From contig NZ_JAPEMI010000002.1 of assembly GCF_026342835.1 (NCBI RefSeq), forward strand, positions 1,426,001 to 1,490,000: a stretch of DNA of 64,000 bases, in the 5' to 3' direction. Below are positions 24,124 through 46,545 of this stretch, piece by piece; position 1 is the first letter of the stretch, and every line of letters starts with the position of its first letter. Under the pieces are notes generated by a model. It was given only the letters and a program-made list of their open reading frames with translations, searched no databases and was not told where the DNA came from. The position numbers and the translations under genes were made by a program. Source of the DNA: Streptomyces sp. NBC_00154 (GTDB lineage: Bacteria > Actinomycetota > Actinomycetes > Streptomycetales > Streptomycetaceae).

Positions 24124-24600
24124 ATGAACTGTCCCGACTGGCGGGAGGGATCGGTACGCGCTTTTCTTGCCGCGCTGGGTCTGGCGTCCGGCGCCACGGT
24201 GAGCGAGCGGCAGGCCAAGCTGCTGTACGACGAGGGCCGGCACCCAACGCCGACGCCATCGAGGCGCAGCGCCTGGCGGCGGGGGAGCCCCGGCAGCTGC
24301 GCGGCGGGCGACGGTGCTGGGCCGGCCGGTCGGCGATGTCGCCTCGCCGTTACTCGCGCTGGATCTGGTGTTCCGGCCGCCGTCGACGGTCCATGTGCTG
24401 TGGGCGCTGGCGGATGAGGGGACCCGGCTACTCATCGAGGACTGTCAGGACAGTGCTCGGGACGGGGCGCTCGGCTGGATGACGGACATCCTCACCGCGG
24501 CCTCCAGTGCGCCACACTGGAGGAAGGCGGCCGACGCCGTCGCTCACCTCTCCTTGACCGCCGCCCAGTTGCGGGAGATCACTGGTGCACGCGCTCAGGC
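24124..24600 (+). pseudogene. MobF-type relaxase N-terminal remnant
   Basis: Two frames carry LAALGLASGATVSERQAKLL plus YDEGRHP and, after a shift near 24250, VLGRPVGDVASPLLALDLVF, RPPSTVHVLWALADEGTRLL and EDCQDSARDGALGWMTDI. The order (short N-terminal block, then a TFRP-like strand followed by VLWALAD) fits the TrwC/TraA relaxase domain of conjugative plasmids and ICEs. The catalytic tyrosines and the helicase half are missing. It suggests that an integrated mobile element once covered this zone. Confidence 0.5.
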
Positions 24601-24933
24601 CGCGGCCGTTGGATTCGCCGACTCGGCGGCACGGTGGTATTCGGCGTTGATGCGCTGGGCTTCTTCGAGCTGGTCTTCGAGGATGACGATGCGGCAGGCG
24701 GCCTCGATGGGGGTGCCCTGGTCGACGAGTTCCCGGGCGCGTGCGGCGATGCGCAGCTGGTAGCGGGAGTAGCGGCGGTGGCCGCCCGCGGATCGGAGCG
24801 GGGTGATGAGGCGGGCTTCGCCGATGGCGCGGAGGAAGCTCTGGGGGGTGCCGAGCATTTCGGCGGCCCGGCCCATGGTGTAGGCGGGGTAGTCGTCGTC
24901 GTCGAGACGGCCGTACGAGTCGTCTGCTGTCAT
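24595..24933 (-). CDS. MerR-like helix-turn-helix regulator
   Basis: ATG 24933 follows GAGAGG. The 112-residue protein contains a MerR-type HTH (YTMGRAAEMLGTPQSFLRAI, GEARLITPLRSAGGHRRYSR) and a helical end (LVDQGTPIEAACRIVILEDQ). It lacks a ligand domain. Very similar short proteins are widespread in Streptomyces, often next to cold-shock genes (my recollection). No cold-shock gene is adjacent here. A 32-bp perfect palindrome lies 26 bp upstream of the start. Confidence 0.85.
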   Translation of the reverse strand: MTADDSYGRLDDDDYPAYTMGRAAEMLGTPQSFLRAIGEARLITPLRSAGGHRRYSRYQLRIAARARELVDQGTPIEAACRIVILEDQLEEAQRINAEYHRAAESANPTAAA

Positions 24934-24958: not shown

Positions 24959-24990
24959 GGGGCCCTGGTGCCGTACGGCACCAGGGCCCC
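24959..24990. promoter_or_regulatory. 32-bp perfect palindrome upstream of MerR-like gene
   Basis: The arm GGGGCCCTGGTGCCGT is followed directly by its exact complement, so the stem can have 16 pairs with no spacer. It could be the terminator of a lost upstream gene on the minus strand, a leader hairpin of the MerR-like message, or an operator. No T-run follows it on either strand. Confidence 0.6.
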
Positions 24991-25215: not shown

Positions 25216-25571
25216 ACTGCGTACTGCTGGTACTGCGGACTGCTTCGTACTGCTGGTGATGCGAACTGCTGGTGACCTGTGTAAGCGTCACTCTTCGGCA
25301 GCCAGCCCCGTTGCCCGTCCTGCGCCTGCTCTGGCTTAGAACCCCACTGCCGAATTTCCCGGCACGCGCGCCCGCAGCCGACGCCTTCACCGAGGTACTG
25401 CTCACTTCACTGCTGATTCTGCGAACTGCACTTACGGGTACTGCCACGGCGGCCCCTGAATCACTGCGGGCCACCCGGTCCGGTCGTCAGTCCCGTCGCC
25501 GTCCTGCAACAACCCTGGCTTCGAAACTCCACCACCGCACCGTCCTACGCACTGCAACTGCGTGTACTGCT
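25216..25571. repeat. ACTGC-rich iterated motif region
   Basis: About fifteen copies of ACTGC (often TACTGC or AACTGC) occur on the plus strand in 356 bp, with the densest part at 25216-25269 (spacing 7, 9, 7, 10, 16) and others at 25397, 25409, 25424, 25440, 25460, 25552, 25558 and 25567. The spacing is irregular, so it is not a tandem array or CRISPR. No protein frame explains it. The whole stretch 24991-25842 has no supported gene. Confidence 0.55.
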
Positions 25572-26279: not shown

Positions 26280-26666
26280 TCACGAGGTCCGCGAAACGAG
26301 TTCCTCGTACTCCAGGTCGGACAGGTCCGTGGCCTGCACGTAGGCCTGGAAACCGTCGAGCAGATTGCGGAGTGTGTTGCGACTGGTCGAGTGCTCGATC
26401 CTCTGCTCGATCTCCGTGGCCTCGGGACACCAGGAGATCAGCACGATCTTTTCTTTCCGGGTCCCGTCCGTCGTCGCAAAGACCAGGTCGTAGACGACGA
26501 ACCGAGTCTCGGCGGCCGGCAGGGCCTGCAGTAGTTCGTCGTGCGTCAGGTTCCCCTTGAAGTCGGGGATGACGGTCTCCAGGTTGTTGCTGAGCCGGTA
26601 GATCACTGTGTTGACGTGCCGCTTGCTCTTCAGCTCATGAAATGCCTCGATACAGCTGTCTTCCAC
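26280..26666 (-). CDS. ADF/cofilin-domain protein (bacterial actin-depolymerising-factor homologue)
   Basis: The 128-residue protein aligns end to end with eukaryotic ADF/cofilin. EDSCIEAFHELKSKRHVNTV matches the first helix of plant ADF (DDC-KFMELKTKR). LLQALPAAETRFVVYDLVF matches the LP-x-C/E-RY-x-x-x-D strand. IVLISWCPEATEIEQRIEHS matches the F-x-W-x-P-[DE] strand and long actin-binding helix, STSRNTLRNLLDG matches SSKDxxKRxLxG, and YVQATDLSDLEYEELVSRTS matches the C-terminal helix. Gaps are confined to one loop near residue 37. In eukaryotes this fold severs and depolymerises actin. Here the partner is unknown: eukaryotic actin, a bacterial actin-like protein, or none. The GTG start sits where family homology begins and lacks a good ribosome site. 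By hand count about 85% of third positions are G or C, so it is adapted to this genome. Confidence 0.85.
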   Translation of the reverse strand: MEDSCIEAFHELKSKRHVNTVIYRLSNNLETVIPDFKGNLTHDELLQALPAAETRFVVYDLVFATTDGTRKEKIVLISWCPEATEIEQRIEHSTSRNTLRNLLDGFQAYVQATDLSDLEYEELVSRTS

Positions 26667-26926
26667 TGGTTGCGTGGATCTTGATCGGTCTGCTGGCAGG
26701 TGCGATCGCTAAGGCGTTGATGCCGGGTAGGGACCCGGGAGGCTGCCTGATCACGATGCTGATCGGCATCGTCGGCGGTCTTCTCGGCGGCTGGCTGGGA
26801 AAGGTCATCTTCGGCGTGCACTCGATCAGGGGCTTCTTCCATCTCTCCACGTGGATCGCCGCCGTCGTCGGATCCGTCATCGTTCTGGCCATCTACCGGC
26901 TCATCGCAGGACGGCGCATCCACTGA
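26642..26926 (+). CDS. GlsB/YeaQ/YmgE-family stress membrane protein
   Basis: The 94-residue protein has three hydrophobic helices and the family core WILIGLLAGAIAKALMPGRD, PGGCLITMLIGIVGGLLGGW. This is a small membrane protein of the transglycosylase-associated type, usually stress-induced. The only in-frame start is ATG 26642, which lies inside the oppositely oriented ADF-like gene and has no ribosome site. The first nine residues (MPRYSCLPL) are not family-like. The native 5' end has probably been replaced by the recombination joint near 26665. Confidence 0.8.
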   Translation: MPRYSCLPLVAWILIGLLAGAIAKALMPGRDPGGCLITMLIGIVGGLLGGWLGKVIFGVHSIRGFFHLSTWIAAVVGSVIVLAIYRLIAGRRIH

Positions 26927-26958: not shown

Positions 26959-27838
26959 GAGCCTCTTCCAACCTGAGTGTGGGGAAGAGCGGTTGGCGTG
27001 ACGCAACGATGAAACTCCTGGTAGATGGGTTGTCGACCAAGATCAACCTTCTCTGCCAGGAGCTTCGCGTGCTTGTCTACCCATCAGGGTTGGATCTGTC
27101 CGCTTCCGCATTGCGGTTGCTGCGCCGGGAGTTGGCCGCTCGGCGGCGACGGATCGGGACTCGCTGGCGGCGGCTGACCTGCAGCCGTCAGGCGCTGATG
27201 GCTCTGGCCCACCTGCGCTGCGGTCACACGTTCGCCCAGCTCGCGGCCGGGTTCGGCGTCGGCCTGGCCACGGCCCACCGCTACGTCACCGAGGCCGTGG
27301 ACGTCCTGACCGCTCTCGCGCCCACGCTCCAGCAGGCCATGGCCGTCGCCGCGCGCAAGGCGTTCGTGATCCTTGACGGCACCCTGCTGCCCGTCGACCG
27401 CATTGCGGCAGACCGCCCGTTCTACTCGGGCAAGCACAAGAAGCACGGCACGTCCAGGTCCTCACCGACCCGTTCGGCAGGCTCCTGTGGGCCTCGCCAG
27501 TACTGCCGGGCGCCGTCCACGACATCAAGGCCGTCCGCACCCACGGCGTCATCGAGGCCCTCGCCGGGGCCGGGGTGCGATGCTGGGCGGACAAGGCATA
27601 TCAGGGGGCCGGCGGCACGGTCCGCGTCCCCTACCCGCGGCCGCTGGGAGAAGCTCTCCGCAGGCCAGAAAGCCGTCAACCGCGCCCACGCGAAGATCCG
27701 CGCTGTCGGTGAGCAAGCCATGGCCACCCTCAAATCCTGGCGACGGCTGCGCAAGCTCCGCTGCAGCACCACCCGCATAACCGACCTGGTTAGGGCCATC
27801 CTCGCTCTGCAGGTCAACGCCTCAGAATGAAGAGGCAG
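26959..27838 (+). mobile_element. IS5-like insertion element, decayed
   Basis: Imperfect terminal inverted repeats share GCCTCTTC and CTGAG (left end 26959-26977, right end 27821-27838 on the opposite strand). The element of about 880 bp holds one transposase gene with two compensating frameshifts. No target duplication was confirmed. Confidence 0.65.
27009..27830 (+). pseudogene. IS5-like (DDE_Tnp_4) transposase, doubly frameshifted
   Basis: The N-terminal HTH (LMALAHLRCGHTFAQLAAGF, GVGLATAHRYVTEAVDVL) and the first DDE Asp (FVILDGTLLPVDRIA) are in frame. After HKKHG (about 27444) the frame shifts. The expected segment (VQVLTDPFGRLLWASPVLPG, HDIKAVRTHGVIEAL, CWADKAYQG with the second Asp) is in another frame until an extra C near 27647 restores it (RGRWEKLSAGQKAVNRAHAK). 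The element is therefore inactive unless these are sequencing errors. Confidence 0.8.
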
Positions 27839-28554: not shown

Positions 28555-28696
28555 AAGCCCGCCGCCAGGACCAGGATCGAACGGCTCTGCGTGTCGCCTC
28601 GGCGCCCAACAAAGCTCACCCTGAGCCCTTCAACTCCGGACGGTCACACTTCGCCACCCATGCCCATGACCAGATTGGAAAAGGCTCTCTGGCCCG

Positions 28697-30433
28697 CAAT
28701 GCCGGTGAGTTAGCGCGTCGGTGCAGGTCAGGCACTTGATAGTGCGGGGTTTGGTTGGGAATATCCCCTGGTGACGTTGCGTGATCCGTCACTTCTGGTG
28801 ACGTGTCGGCGGAGGCCGGGACACGGCAACGGAGTTCCCGGTAGGACAGAAGATCGACCAAGATCCGACTGTCCGCGAGGGAACTCCGTTGGGTACTCAG
28901 TGTGCCATCGTCCGCATGTCGTCTGCCATCACCGAGGGCAGCCAGGCCCCGTTGAACAGGCTGGTGACCCCCACGGACCGGCGCTTTGGCGAGCACGTCC
29001 GTCTCGGCGTGTTGACCGAGGAGATCAGCCCTGAACTGGTTGACGAGGTCGTGGAGTTGACCGGCTGCGGCGAGCGTCGCCGCCGGCTGTTGCCCGCCCG
29101 GGCGGTGGTCTACTTCATCCTGGCGTTGTGCCTGTTCAGCAGCTCCGACAGTGCCGGGCCGCCGGGATACCGGTCGGTCCTGCGCACGTTGACGGAGAAG
29201 CTGCGGCATCTGCCAGGCCTGTGTGTGCAGCGCTTGCCCACCAGCTCGGCCCTGACACGGGCCCGGCAGCGGCTGGGCGACAAGCCGCTGCAGGCGCTGT
29301 TCGAGCGGCGGTGCGGCACGCTGGCCACGACCGTCACTCCGGGCGCGTTCGCCTTCGGGCTGCGGCTGGTCGCCTGGGACGGCACCGCGCTGGATGTCCC
29401 CGACACCCCGGCAAACGCTGCTGAGTTCGGTTTCACCGGCAAGGGTGGTGTCAACCAGAGCGGACACCCACAGGTCCGCCTGATGGCCCTGACCGAATGC
29501 GGCACCCACGCCCTGGTCGACGCGGCCTCGACGCCGTGGCCAGGTTCAGCGAGCACAAGCTCGCCCGCCGGCTGCTGGCCTCCCTGCGAGGGGACATGCT
29601 GCTGCTGGCCGACCGCAACTTCGCCGGATACCAGCTGTGGGGCCTGGCCCGCGCCACCGGCGCCCACCTGGCCTGGCGGATCAAGAAGAACCTGGTCTTC
29701 GTGCCGCTGCGGGTGCTGTCCGACGGGTCCTACCTGTCCATCATGCGCACGCCCGCGGAGAACATCCGCCACGGTCAGGCCCGCGCGGCCGGACGCACCC
29801 TGACCGAGCCGCCCCGGGGACACCTGGTACGGATCATCGAGTACACCGTGACCATCCACCCACAGGCCGGCCCACCCCGCACCGAGACGTTCCGGCTGGT
29901 CACCAGCCTGCTGGACCACCGCCTCGCCCCGGCCCACCAGCTGGCGAGGGCATATCACCAGCGGTGGGAGATCGAAAACGGATTCGCGGAACTCAAGAAC
30001 CGCCTGCGCGGCGCCGGATTCATCCTGCGCTCCAAGGCGCCCGAGCTGATCTACCAGGAGATCTACGCCCTTCTCACCGTCTACCAGGCACTATGCGCAC
30101 TGCAGACGCGCGCGGCAGAACACGGCGGGACCGATCCTGACCGGATCTCCTTCACCGTCACGGTGCAGCTCGCCCGGCTGGCCGTCGCCGCCCAGGCCGC
30201 AGCCGACGTCACCACACTGGCCGCCGCCCGCCGCGAAGCCACCACAGAGCTCTTGGCCGCCCTCCTGCCGCCCCGGCGCAACCGGCAGTGCCAGCGCATC
30301 AAGAAGCCGTCCAAGAACACCTTCGAGGTCAGAAAACGGGACCAGACCCGCACTCCCAGTAACGTCCGCTACACACTCAAAGTCACCAAGCACCCCACCT
30401 GACCTGCACCGACGCGCTAACTCACCGGCATTG
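28697..30433 (+). mobile_element. IS4-family insertion sequence with 10-bp target duplication
   Basis: Perfect 36-bp terminal inverted repeats begin CAATGCCGGTGAGTTAGCGC (28697-28732, complement at 30398-30433). The element is flanked by an exact 10-bp direct repeat CTCTGGCCCG (28687-28696 and 30434-30443). Identical ends and an intact duplication point to a recent insertion, although the transposase reading frame is broken once. Confidence 0.9.
28889..30402 (+). pseudogene. IS4-family transposase, one frameshift
   Basis: The first frame covers the N-terminal domain (LLPARAVVYFILALCLFSSS, PPGYRSVLRTLTEKLRHLPG), the first DDE Asp (LVAWDGTALDVPDTP) and reads to DAA. One T is missing near 29530. 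The second frame continues DAVARFSEHKLARRLLASLR, LLLADRNFAGY (second Asp) and the YREK-type signature YHQRWEIENGFAELKNRLRG with the catalytic Glu. Adding one base restores a protein of about 500 residues. Start TTG 28889 or ATG 28916. Confidence 0.85.
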
Positions 30434-30768
30434 CTCTGGCCCGGCATCGAGAGCCTCGTGGCGAGCGCACCGGTGGCTGGGCAGTCGCCAGCGTCTGCGG
30501 CGCTGTACGTCGTTGTACCTGCGGGGTCGCGCACCGGAAGCGTGATTGAGATTGTCGAAATGGGCTTTGCCGGGTGCTCCGTCCGGGGCACCACGCCCCC
30601 ATCCTCAATCTAAAGAGTTCTACCCGTCGGCCTGTTGCCTGTTTTGTTCGAGATGCGTGAGGCGCAGGGACGGTACTGCATGCCCACACTGAGGCATAAG
30701 AAACACATAAATGTCGGACGCATGACGGCGTGATACAAGGGCACACGCTGCTCTGCAGGTTGATAACT

Positions 30769-46199: not shown

Positions 46200-46545
46200 G
46201 ATCGCGACAGGCATGGGAAATCGCGTCCACCTGGCCTGCGCCTGGCGAGGCGCAGCGGCGCCGTTGTAGGTGGTGTCCACCTGCAAGGAGACTGGCCGCC
46301 CTGGATGGCTGCCGGGGCGCGGGACGGTGCGCTGGTCGCGTCCCAGATGTCGGACAGGGGGAAGCTGGCCAGGCCGCGCGTGTCGTGCTGGGGCAGATCG
46401 ACGAGGCGGCCGCCGGCCGTGGACCGGGTTTCCCGGGTGTGCAGCAGGGAGTCGTAGACGGTGCAGCCGGTGGTGTAAGCCCGAGGTTGTCGTAGATGGT
46501 CCCGGTGATCTTCGTGACGGGGTCGGTGACTTTAATGGCCAATCA
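46200..46545 (-). pseudogene. RHS-repeat (polymorphic toxin type) protein fragment
   Basis: On the minus strand, AIKVTDPVTKITGTIYDNLG is an RHS-type D-G-YD-LG repeat. After a shift, VYDSLLHTRETRSTAGGRLV, HDTRGLASFPLSDIWDATSA and, in a further frame, SLQVDTTYNGA follow, which is typical of the repeat core of streptomycete RHS proteins. Neither the toxin tip nor the N-terminal part is present. From 45995 to 46200 nothing is assignable. Confidence 0.5.

Follow-up and report, generated by a model that had tools for sequence, protein, structure and literature searches.

A cofilin-family gene without its 5' end in Streptomyces sp. NBC_00154, and the putative repurposing of the ADF-H fold in a Streptomyces clade

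Cofilin severs the actin filaments of animals, plants, and fungi and is regarded as belonging to the actin biology of eukaryotes. A gene of this family lies in the stretch of Streptomyces sp. NBC_00154 DNA analyzed here (the window, 64,000 nucleotides), directly abutting a membrane-protein gene on the opposite strand. The features at the locus are as follows.

26280 to 26669, minus strand: ADF-H coding sequence without its 5' end (PF00241, 101.8 bits, and fold match)
26361 to 26411, minus strand: helix 3, the actin-binding helix of cofilins (window residues 86 to 102), in which E-Q-R-I replaces R-S-K-M
26534 to 26552, minus strand: G-N-L-T-H-D-E-L motif region (window residues 38 to 45), the best-conserved part of the Streptomyces clade
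26666 to 26670, no strand: head-to-head join of two genes, both without 5' ends, placed by the homology limits on either side
26670 to 26926, plus strand: Transgly_assoc gene for a GlsB/YeaQ-type membrane protein, native start missing (PF04226, 39.6 bits)

The cofilin frame (26666 to 26280, minus strand) is open for 128 codons counted from the first GTG, and its ADF-H homology extends one codon (CCA) beyond these. The Pfam search returned PF00241 (Cofilin_ADF) as the sole family in the protein, well above the cutoff of 22.4 bits (E value, 2.7e-29), with residues 5 to 125 covering positions 1 to 124 of 125; a STAS domain was absent. NCBIfam gave nothing above cutoff for the five family members searched, and an Rfam search of the whole window gave 0 matches. 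By sequence, the best solved chain was plant ADF1 (1f7s; E value, 2.5e-20). An AlphaFold2 model built from a 15-sequence alignment (pLDDT 90.4, pTM 0.85) matched cofilin crystals in the PDB with TM scores of 0.9 and Z scores above 21. The top match was 5IVU (TM 0.92, Z 21.8), followed by thermostable actophorin and yeast cofilin (Z 21.4 each). Judged by sequence and predicted fold together, the protein is a true member of the ADF-H family, and both the HMM search and the comparison with yeast cofilin that an earlier note on this DNA had proposed came out on its side. That note had also read E-Q-R-I in the helix motif, an SRTS ending, and host-like codon use (ca. 85% G/C at third positions by hand), all of which are as described (computed GC3, 85.2%); where it gave an F-x-W-x-P-[DE] strand, the window has I-S-W-C-P-E, and it left the coding strand (minus) unmentioned. 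Eukaryotic contamination of the contig was rejected as unlikely, given the quality of the genome and kin in other Streptomyces. The window sits in a 1.74-Mb contig of a 10.39-Mb genome (completeness 100, contamination 0.19), the locus at 26280 to 26666 is the single PF00241 match in that genome, and 77% identical copies of the protein occur in Streptomyces G285 and ISL-1.

Contrary to the earlier note, the gene is not full-length. Close relatives start with MSSGIP(G)-V-[ED]DSC, and the window frame opens at that V, with no in-frame start codon upstream of the GTG and no Shine-Dalgarno-like word before this GTG, the only one in frame; such a word, of 4 to 5 letters, was found in all 12 intact relatives examined from the lineage called A below. 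Cofilin homology stops at position 26666, or at 26669 judged by eye, and homology to an intact Transgly_assoc paralogue from the same genome starts at 26670. This paralogue (G000:C2:7268289-7268577) has 92% DNA identity to the window gene and reads ATGAGCATCATTGCGTGG. The cofilin gene lacks a start and a Shine-Dalgarno word because the divergent Transgly_assoc gene adjoins it directly, and these homology limits indicate that both genes lost their 5' ends through one head-to-head join at ca. 26669/26670. The join could be an assembly error.

A conserved upstream element has gone as well. The strict pattern SAACNTCCCGG-N4-9-TTCGTTG occurs six times in 756,067 bases, always before a cofilin gene (L024, L027, L045, L046, L059, and L064) and at 40 to 41 bases ahead of the called start in five of the six loci, and has 0 occurrences in the genome of the window. 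This lineage A element, which we take to resemble ECF-type promoters, may be a promoter or may reflect shared ancestry; a wider regulon was discarded, since the strict pattern was found before cofilin genes only in these 756,067 bases. The N-terminal segment missing from the window copy matches the first residues of yeast cofilin, five of which are essential for G-actin binding according to PMC3541276. With the start, the ribosome site, the upstream element, and this segment gone, the window copy is therefore probably not expressed. Leaderless translation from the GTG is possible, with nothing in its favor, and a working actin-depolymerizing cofilin made in this strain from a gene without its head is, on the sequence, unlikely.

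Several other features of the window were recorded. An IS-like element at 28696 to 30434 has perfect 37-base inverted ends and a DDE transposase split over two overlapping frames (28889 to 29803 and 29497 to 30402), and a second transposase (26979 to 27830; HTH_Tnp_4 and part of DDE_Tnp_4 in Pfam) lies right beside the join. A perfect 16-base inverted repeat with no spacer (24959 to 24990) is found upstream of a MerR-type gene (24595 to 24933), two adjacent 26-base repeats that are 85% alike occupy 25217 to 25268, with a weaker copy at 25403, and a tRNA-Tyr gene (anticodon gta) is located at 46235 to 46325.

Relatives of the window protein are patchily distributed. They were found in 20 of 392 Streptomyces genomes, and with PF00241 at an E value of 1e-5 in 16 of 293 genomes of the order (all in the genus of the window), 2 of 394 of the class (its own genome and G838), 4 of 200 of the family of G838, and 1 of 246 of the phylum (its own genome), these samples being overlapping ones. 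Scanning named genomes for the motif turned up 14 loci, every one of them in Streptomyces. Among 72,556 plasmid records, six matched the window protein; these plasmids are all linear, come from Streptomyces, and measure 202 kb to 1.05 Mb. A lineage B query added a short fragment in a seventh. Carriage by phages was rejected after 0 matches in 50,697 phage records, and carriage by viral contigs after 46 stretches that fitted a pattern turned out to contain 0 relatives. Among the copies from the Streptomyces and order-wide searches, 13 are located on C1 or C3 contigs longer than 7 Mb, each in a different genome; 11 of the 13 lay within 500 kb of a contig end, the exceptions being G199 and G583 (1.07 and 1.35 Mb in). 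When the 22 copies found in Streptomyces by the window-protein search were pooled with 12 further ones from the order-wide PF00241 search, 8 of 34 were incomplete (the window copy, L018, L019, L021, L082, L085, L088, and L092, the last matching PF00241 positions 65 to 123 only). Two lineage A cofilin genes (L025 and L027) are found ca. 71 kb apart on contig C9 of G161 (Streptomyces sp. CB01635). Outside the genus, in actinomycetes of another family, two G838 proteins (L095:1468-2496 and L096:1465-2562) contain two ADF-H stretches each according to Pfam, and G1060 (L111/L114) and G1072 (L112/L115) have two ADF-H matches in one frame, a double architecture that, we assume, resembles eukaryotic twinfilin.

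In a 43-row tree, the window protein grouped with ISL-1, G285, and S. diastatochromogenes (support 97/93), and this group was nested in a clade of 28 Streptomyces rows (99/98, stem 0.76). Within the latter, 15 rows formed lineage B (100/100); the other 13 are referred to as lineage A, which is itself no clade (L008 stands beside B). Six further Streptomyces rows (L016, L017, L023, L100, L101, and L102, the last entered as part only), referred to as lineage C, were placed among the eukaryotic rows, of which there were four, one an actophorin titled "thermostable"; this part of the tree is poorly resolved. Broken copies L018, L019, L021, and L110 entered no tree. L017 scored 154 to 156 bits against yeast cofilin. 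The structure 5IVU stood beside L016 and L023 (96/93), and a direct fungal origin of these two was dropped, since 5IVU is itself a Streptomyces cofilin. We placed 5IVU with the eukaryotic rows in the tree and in the alignment of contact residues, excluded it from both groups for the contact counts and conservation values, and counted it with lineage C for pairwise identities.

That Streptomyces contains cofilin is already known. In PMC2651865 (2009), the entry on cofilin/ADF names Streptomyces as the sole place of a homologue (gi 112791749) and calls it probable HGT, and 5IVU (released in the PDB in 2017) bears the title "Crystal Structure of Streptomyces griseoflavus Cofilin". Like the window protein, 5IVU is a bacterial ADF-H protein, and the best structural match to it, but it is only 26% identical in the structural alignment, lies outside the window clade, and keeps basic contacts (K, K, R, and K at the K96, K98, R80, and K82 positions). 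Three of the six plasmid copies are annotated, by name only, as "cofilin family protein" and belong to the same clade as the window (NZ_CP085174.1 in lineage A, NZ_CP108617.1 and NZ_CP108770.1 in lineage B; 34.7 to 56.5% identical to the window protein); unlike the window copy, the gene of NZ_CP085174.1 has its own start and Shine-Dalgarno-like word. The open full-text literature (a scope that leaves most subscription papers and all preprints outside) yielded neither a function for a Streptomyces cofilin nor a paper on 5IVU. The word cofilin was absent from the Streptomyces contractile injection system papers listed by a full-text search, and the accessible part of PMC12050087 mentions no bacterial cofilin. 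Of the novelty suggested by the earlier note, then, the presence of the protein was already in print and in the PDB, and what stands is that no described function was found in the literature searched. What is new here is the beheading, the motif shift, the loss of contacts in lineage B, and the STAS fusion described below.

The residues with which cofilin touches actin have eroded in the clade. According to PMC3541276, yeast cofilin R96 and K98 belong to the G/F-site and R80, K82, R135, and R138 to the F-site. Basic residues were kept at these positions as follows.

R80: lineage A 9/13, lineage B 15/15, lineage C 3/5, eukaryotes 4/4
K82: lineage A 6/13, lineage B 0/15, lineage C 4/5, eukaryotes 4/4
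R96: lineage A 3/13, lineage B 0/15, lineage C 2/5, eukaryotes 4/4
K98: lineage A 7/13, lineage B 0/15, lineage C 4/5, eukaryotes 4/4
R135: lineage A 4/13, lineage B 0/15, lineage C 4/5, eukaryotes 4/4
R138: lineage A 0/13, lineage B 0/15, lineage C 3/5, eukaryotes 2/4 (the two misses are segments ending before this position)

Lineage B has therefore no basic residue at five of the six contacts in any of its 15 rows, and R80 alone remains. At R80, K82, R96, K98, R135, and R138, the window protein reads K, K, E, R, R, and gap, respectively; its subclade appears to be halfway through the loss and, with part of the contacts retained, may still bind actin. In A and B together, conservation of the contact columns as a set was not significantly below that of random columns (0.226). 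The reading given in the earlier note, a genuine ADF-H protein in a streptomycete with altered actin-binding residues, is borne out by the PF00241 match and by this contact alignment.

Eukaryotic ADF/cofilins (yeast cofilin 1CFY, Arabidopsis ADF1 1F7S, and actophorin) share the fold and a whole-domain alignment with the window protein but, unlike it, have the N-terminal segment and R96, and their helix 3 is conserved (0.75 in the four rows), whereas in the window clade it is GNLTHDEL that is conserved. In A and B together, conservation was highest in the stretch from 38 to 50 (GNLTHDEL and helix 2; 0.90, versus 0.60 in the four eukaryotes) and lowest in helix 3 (0.53). N39 to L45 were kept at 96 to 100% across the 28 rows and at less in a wider row set. 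We also computed pairwise identities in 25 rows, leaving out seven motif-scan rows that had been selected on the motif and adding L063, L020, L106, and L109. The stretch from 38 to 50 gave 0.78 in this set and 0.43 in lineage C plus eukaryotes, while helix 3 gave 0.38 in both; the gain of the motif therefore holds and the helix 3 contrast does not. We infer that the gained GNLTHDEL stretch would serve as a novel contact surface, apart from the side that faces actin.

Selection on the family is weakly visible. In ten pairs of the close set, dN/dS was 0.42 to 0.56, and the bootstrap 95% intervals excluded 1 in three of the four pairs tested, which suggests weak purifying selection family-wide. 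The earlier note had the gene under selection, and this stands for the family; it does not carry over to the window copy as a working gene, its start being lost. Private amino acid changes number 10 in the window protein and 5, 8, and 13 in its three neighbors; its branch is free of stops and has not changed faster than theirs. Either the loss of the head is recent, therefore, or the frame still serves a purpose.

The survey of homologues and their neighbors suggested by the earlier note covered 42 cofilin loci (A, 14; B, 22; C, 6), compared with 40 control regions by means of our own ORF caller and BLAST families. The controls were drawn from this genome set and match its own loci only, not those on plasmids or named contigs. 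A gene of ca. 91 residues was found at 12 of the 22 lineage B loci, in 1 of the 40 controls, and at none of the 20 A and C loci; it is called "isoamylase early set" in plasmid records and is weakly AMPK1_CBM-like (18.8 bits, below the cutoff of 26.8). In the nine loci with both genes called correctly, it was 82 to 1,458 bases from the cofilin gene, upstream in eight and on the same strand in six. HATPase genes (7/42 loci versus 0/40 controls; P = 0.007) and PRC-barrel genes (8/42 versus 0/40; P = 0.003) were also enriched by Fisher tests, which are exploratory, the families having been chosen after inspection; STAS, Asp23, Transgly_assoc, hemerythrin, CBS, SRPBCC, CsbD, and LigD did not reach 0.05 in the same comparison (42 versus 40), and 6 of the 11 families tested were above 0.06. 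A split-sample test on recurrent families other than cofilin gave 0.46 versus 0.18 per locus with A seeds and 1.25 versus 0.68 with B seeds. These figures and the choice of families after inspection weakened the neighborhood as strong evidence, and we no longer treat it as such. In the window, TspO, Polyketide_cyc, hemerythrin, and SpoIIE genes lie within 12 kb.

One genome, G162, contains a STAS-ADF-H fusion (L043:9755-10549, minus strand), a single frame of 264 residues with STAS at 20 to 96 (52.5 bits) and ADF-H at 146 to 256 (32.4 bits). Through this fusion, L033_14 and L037_13, both of them STAS genes, had been labeled cofilin, and L037 was left out of the pair counts. As a single case, the fusion could be a chance in-frame deletion or fusion. 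Together with some of the neighbors, it hints at stress regulation.

We consider it about even, with a probability of roughly 0.52, that a eukaryote-derived fold is being repurposed in a Streptomyces-specific ADF-H clade and that the window holds a decapitated copy of this accessory gene. A cofilin gene would have passed from a eukaryote into Streptomyces and, to judge from the positions of the copies, spread over chromosome arms and linear plasmids. In the alignment, actin contacts erode within the clade, completely so in lineage B, while a new face, made up of the GNLTHDEL stretch and helix 2, has become nearly invariant. This face most likely binds a partner other than actin, probably within the accompanying sets of stress genes, as the neighbors and the one STAS-ADF-H fusion suggest. 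In the window, a rearrangement fused the gene head to head with a stress membrane-protein gene and took away its start codon and ribosome site together with the upstream element and the N-terminal segment.

Two alternatives keep an actin-type target. A working severing protein aimed at eukaryotic actin, be it that of a host, a predator, or a fungus, would agree with the full ADF-H fold, with the basics partly kept by the window protein and its close kin at R80, K82, K98, and R135, and with the nearness of some Streptomyces copies (lineage C) to eukaryotic cofilins. We find it highly doubtful: the window copy has no start, no ribosome site, and no N-terminal segment of the kind essential for G-actin binding in yeast cofilin, lineage B has lost the contacts, intact relatives show by eye no signal-like hydrophobic N terminus, and no delivery system appears among the recurrent neighbor families of the cofilin loci. 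A regulator of a bacterial actin-like filament (of the MreB, Mbl, ParM, or AlfA type) acting in stress or sporulation would explain why a bacterium that lacks actin conserves an ADF-H fold and why the neighbors are of the stress type. It is improbable, given that no actin-like gene is present among the recognizable recurrent neighbor families, that the actin-contacting face is the very part that erodes, and that the family is restricted to 20 of 392 genomes, whereas MreB is general in streptomycetes.

Repeated capture of eukaryotic genes that serve no bacterial function and are being lost to drift, the window copy among them, would explain why 8 of 34 copies are incomplete, a dN/dS of about 0.5, the patchy distribution, and the scatter of other Streptomyces copies among eukaryotic rows of the tree. 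This we regard as unlikely in view of the near invariance of N39 to L45 across 28 rows (lower in the wider set), the Shine-Dalgarno-like word of 12/12 relatives, a shared upstream element, and the dN/dS below 1 in three of four bootstrapped pairs. Rather unlikely, too, is a more specific account in which the captured cofilin became a non-actin general-stress protein whose GNLTHDEL face meets a partner in STAS/HATPase partner switching, the G162 fusion being the direct link and the window gene a beheaded member.

The window copy is a caution that a whole-looking frame with host-like codons may lack its head. Intact copies of the clade are open to direct assay against actin, MreB, and stress regulators. 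If repurposing of the eukaryote-derived fold is the true account, a clade in which the fold persists while the actin contacts disappear and a new motif becomes fixed would illustrate how a captured cytoskeletal protein can be rewired.
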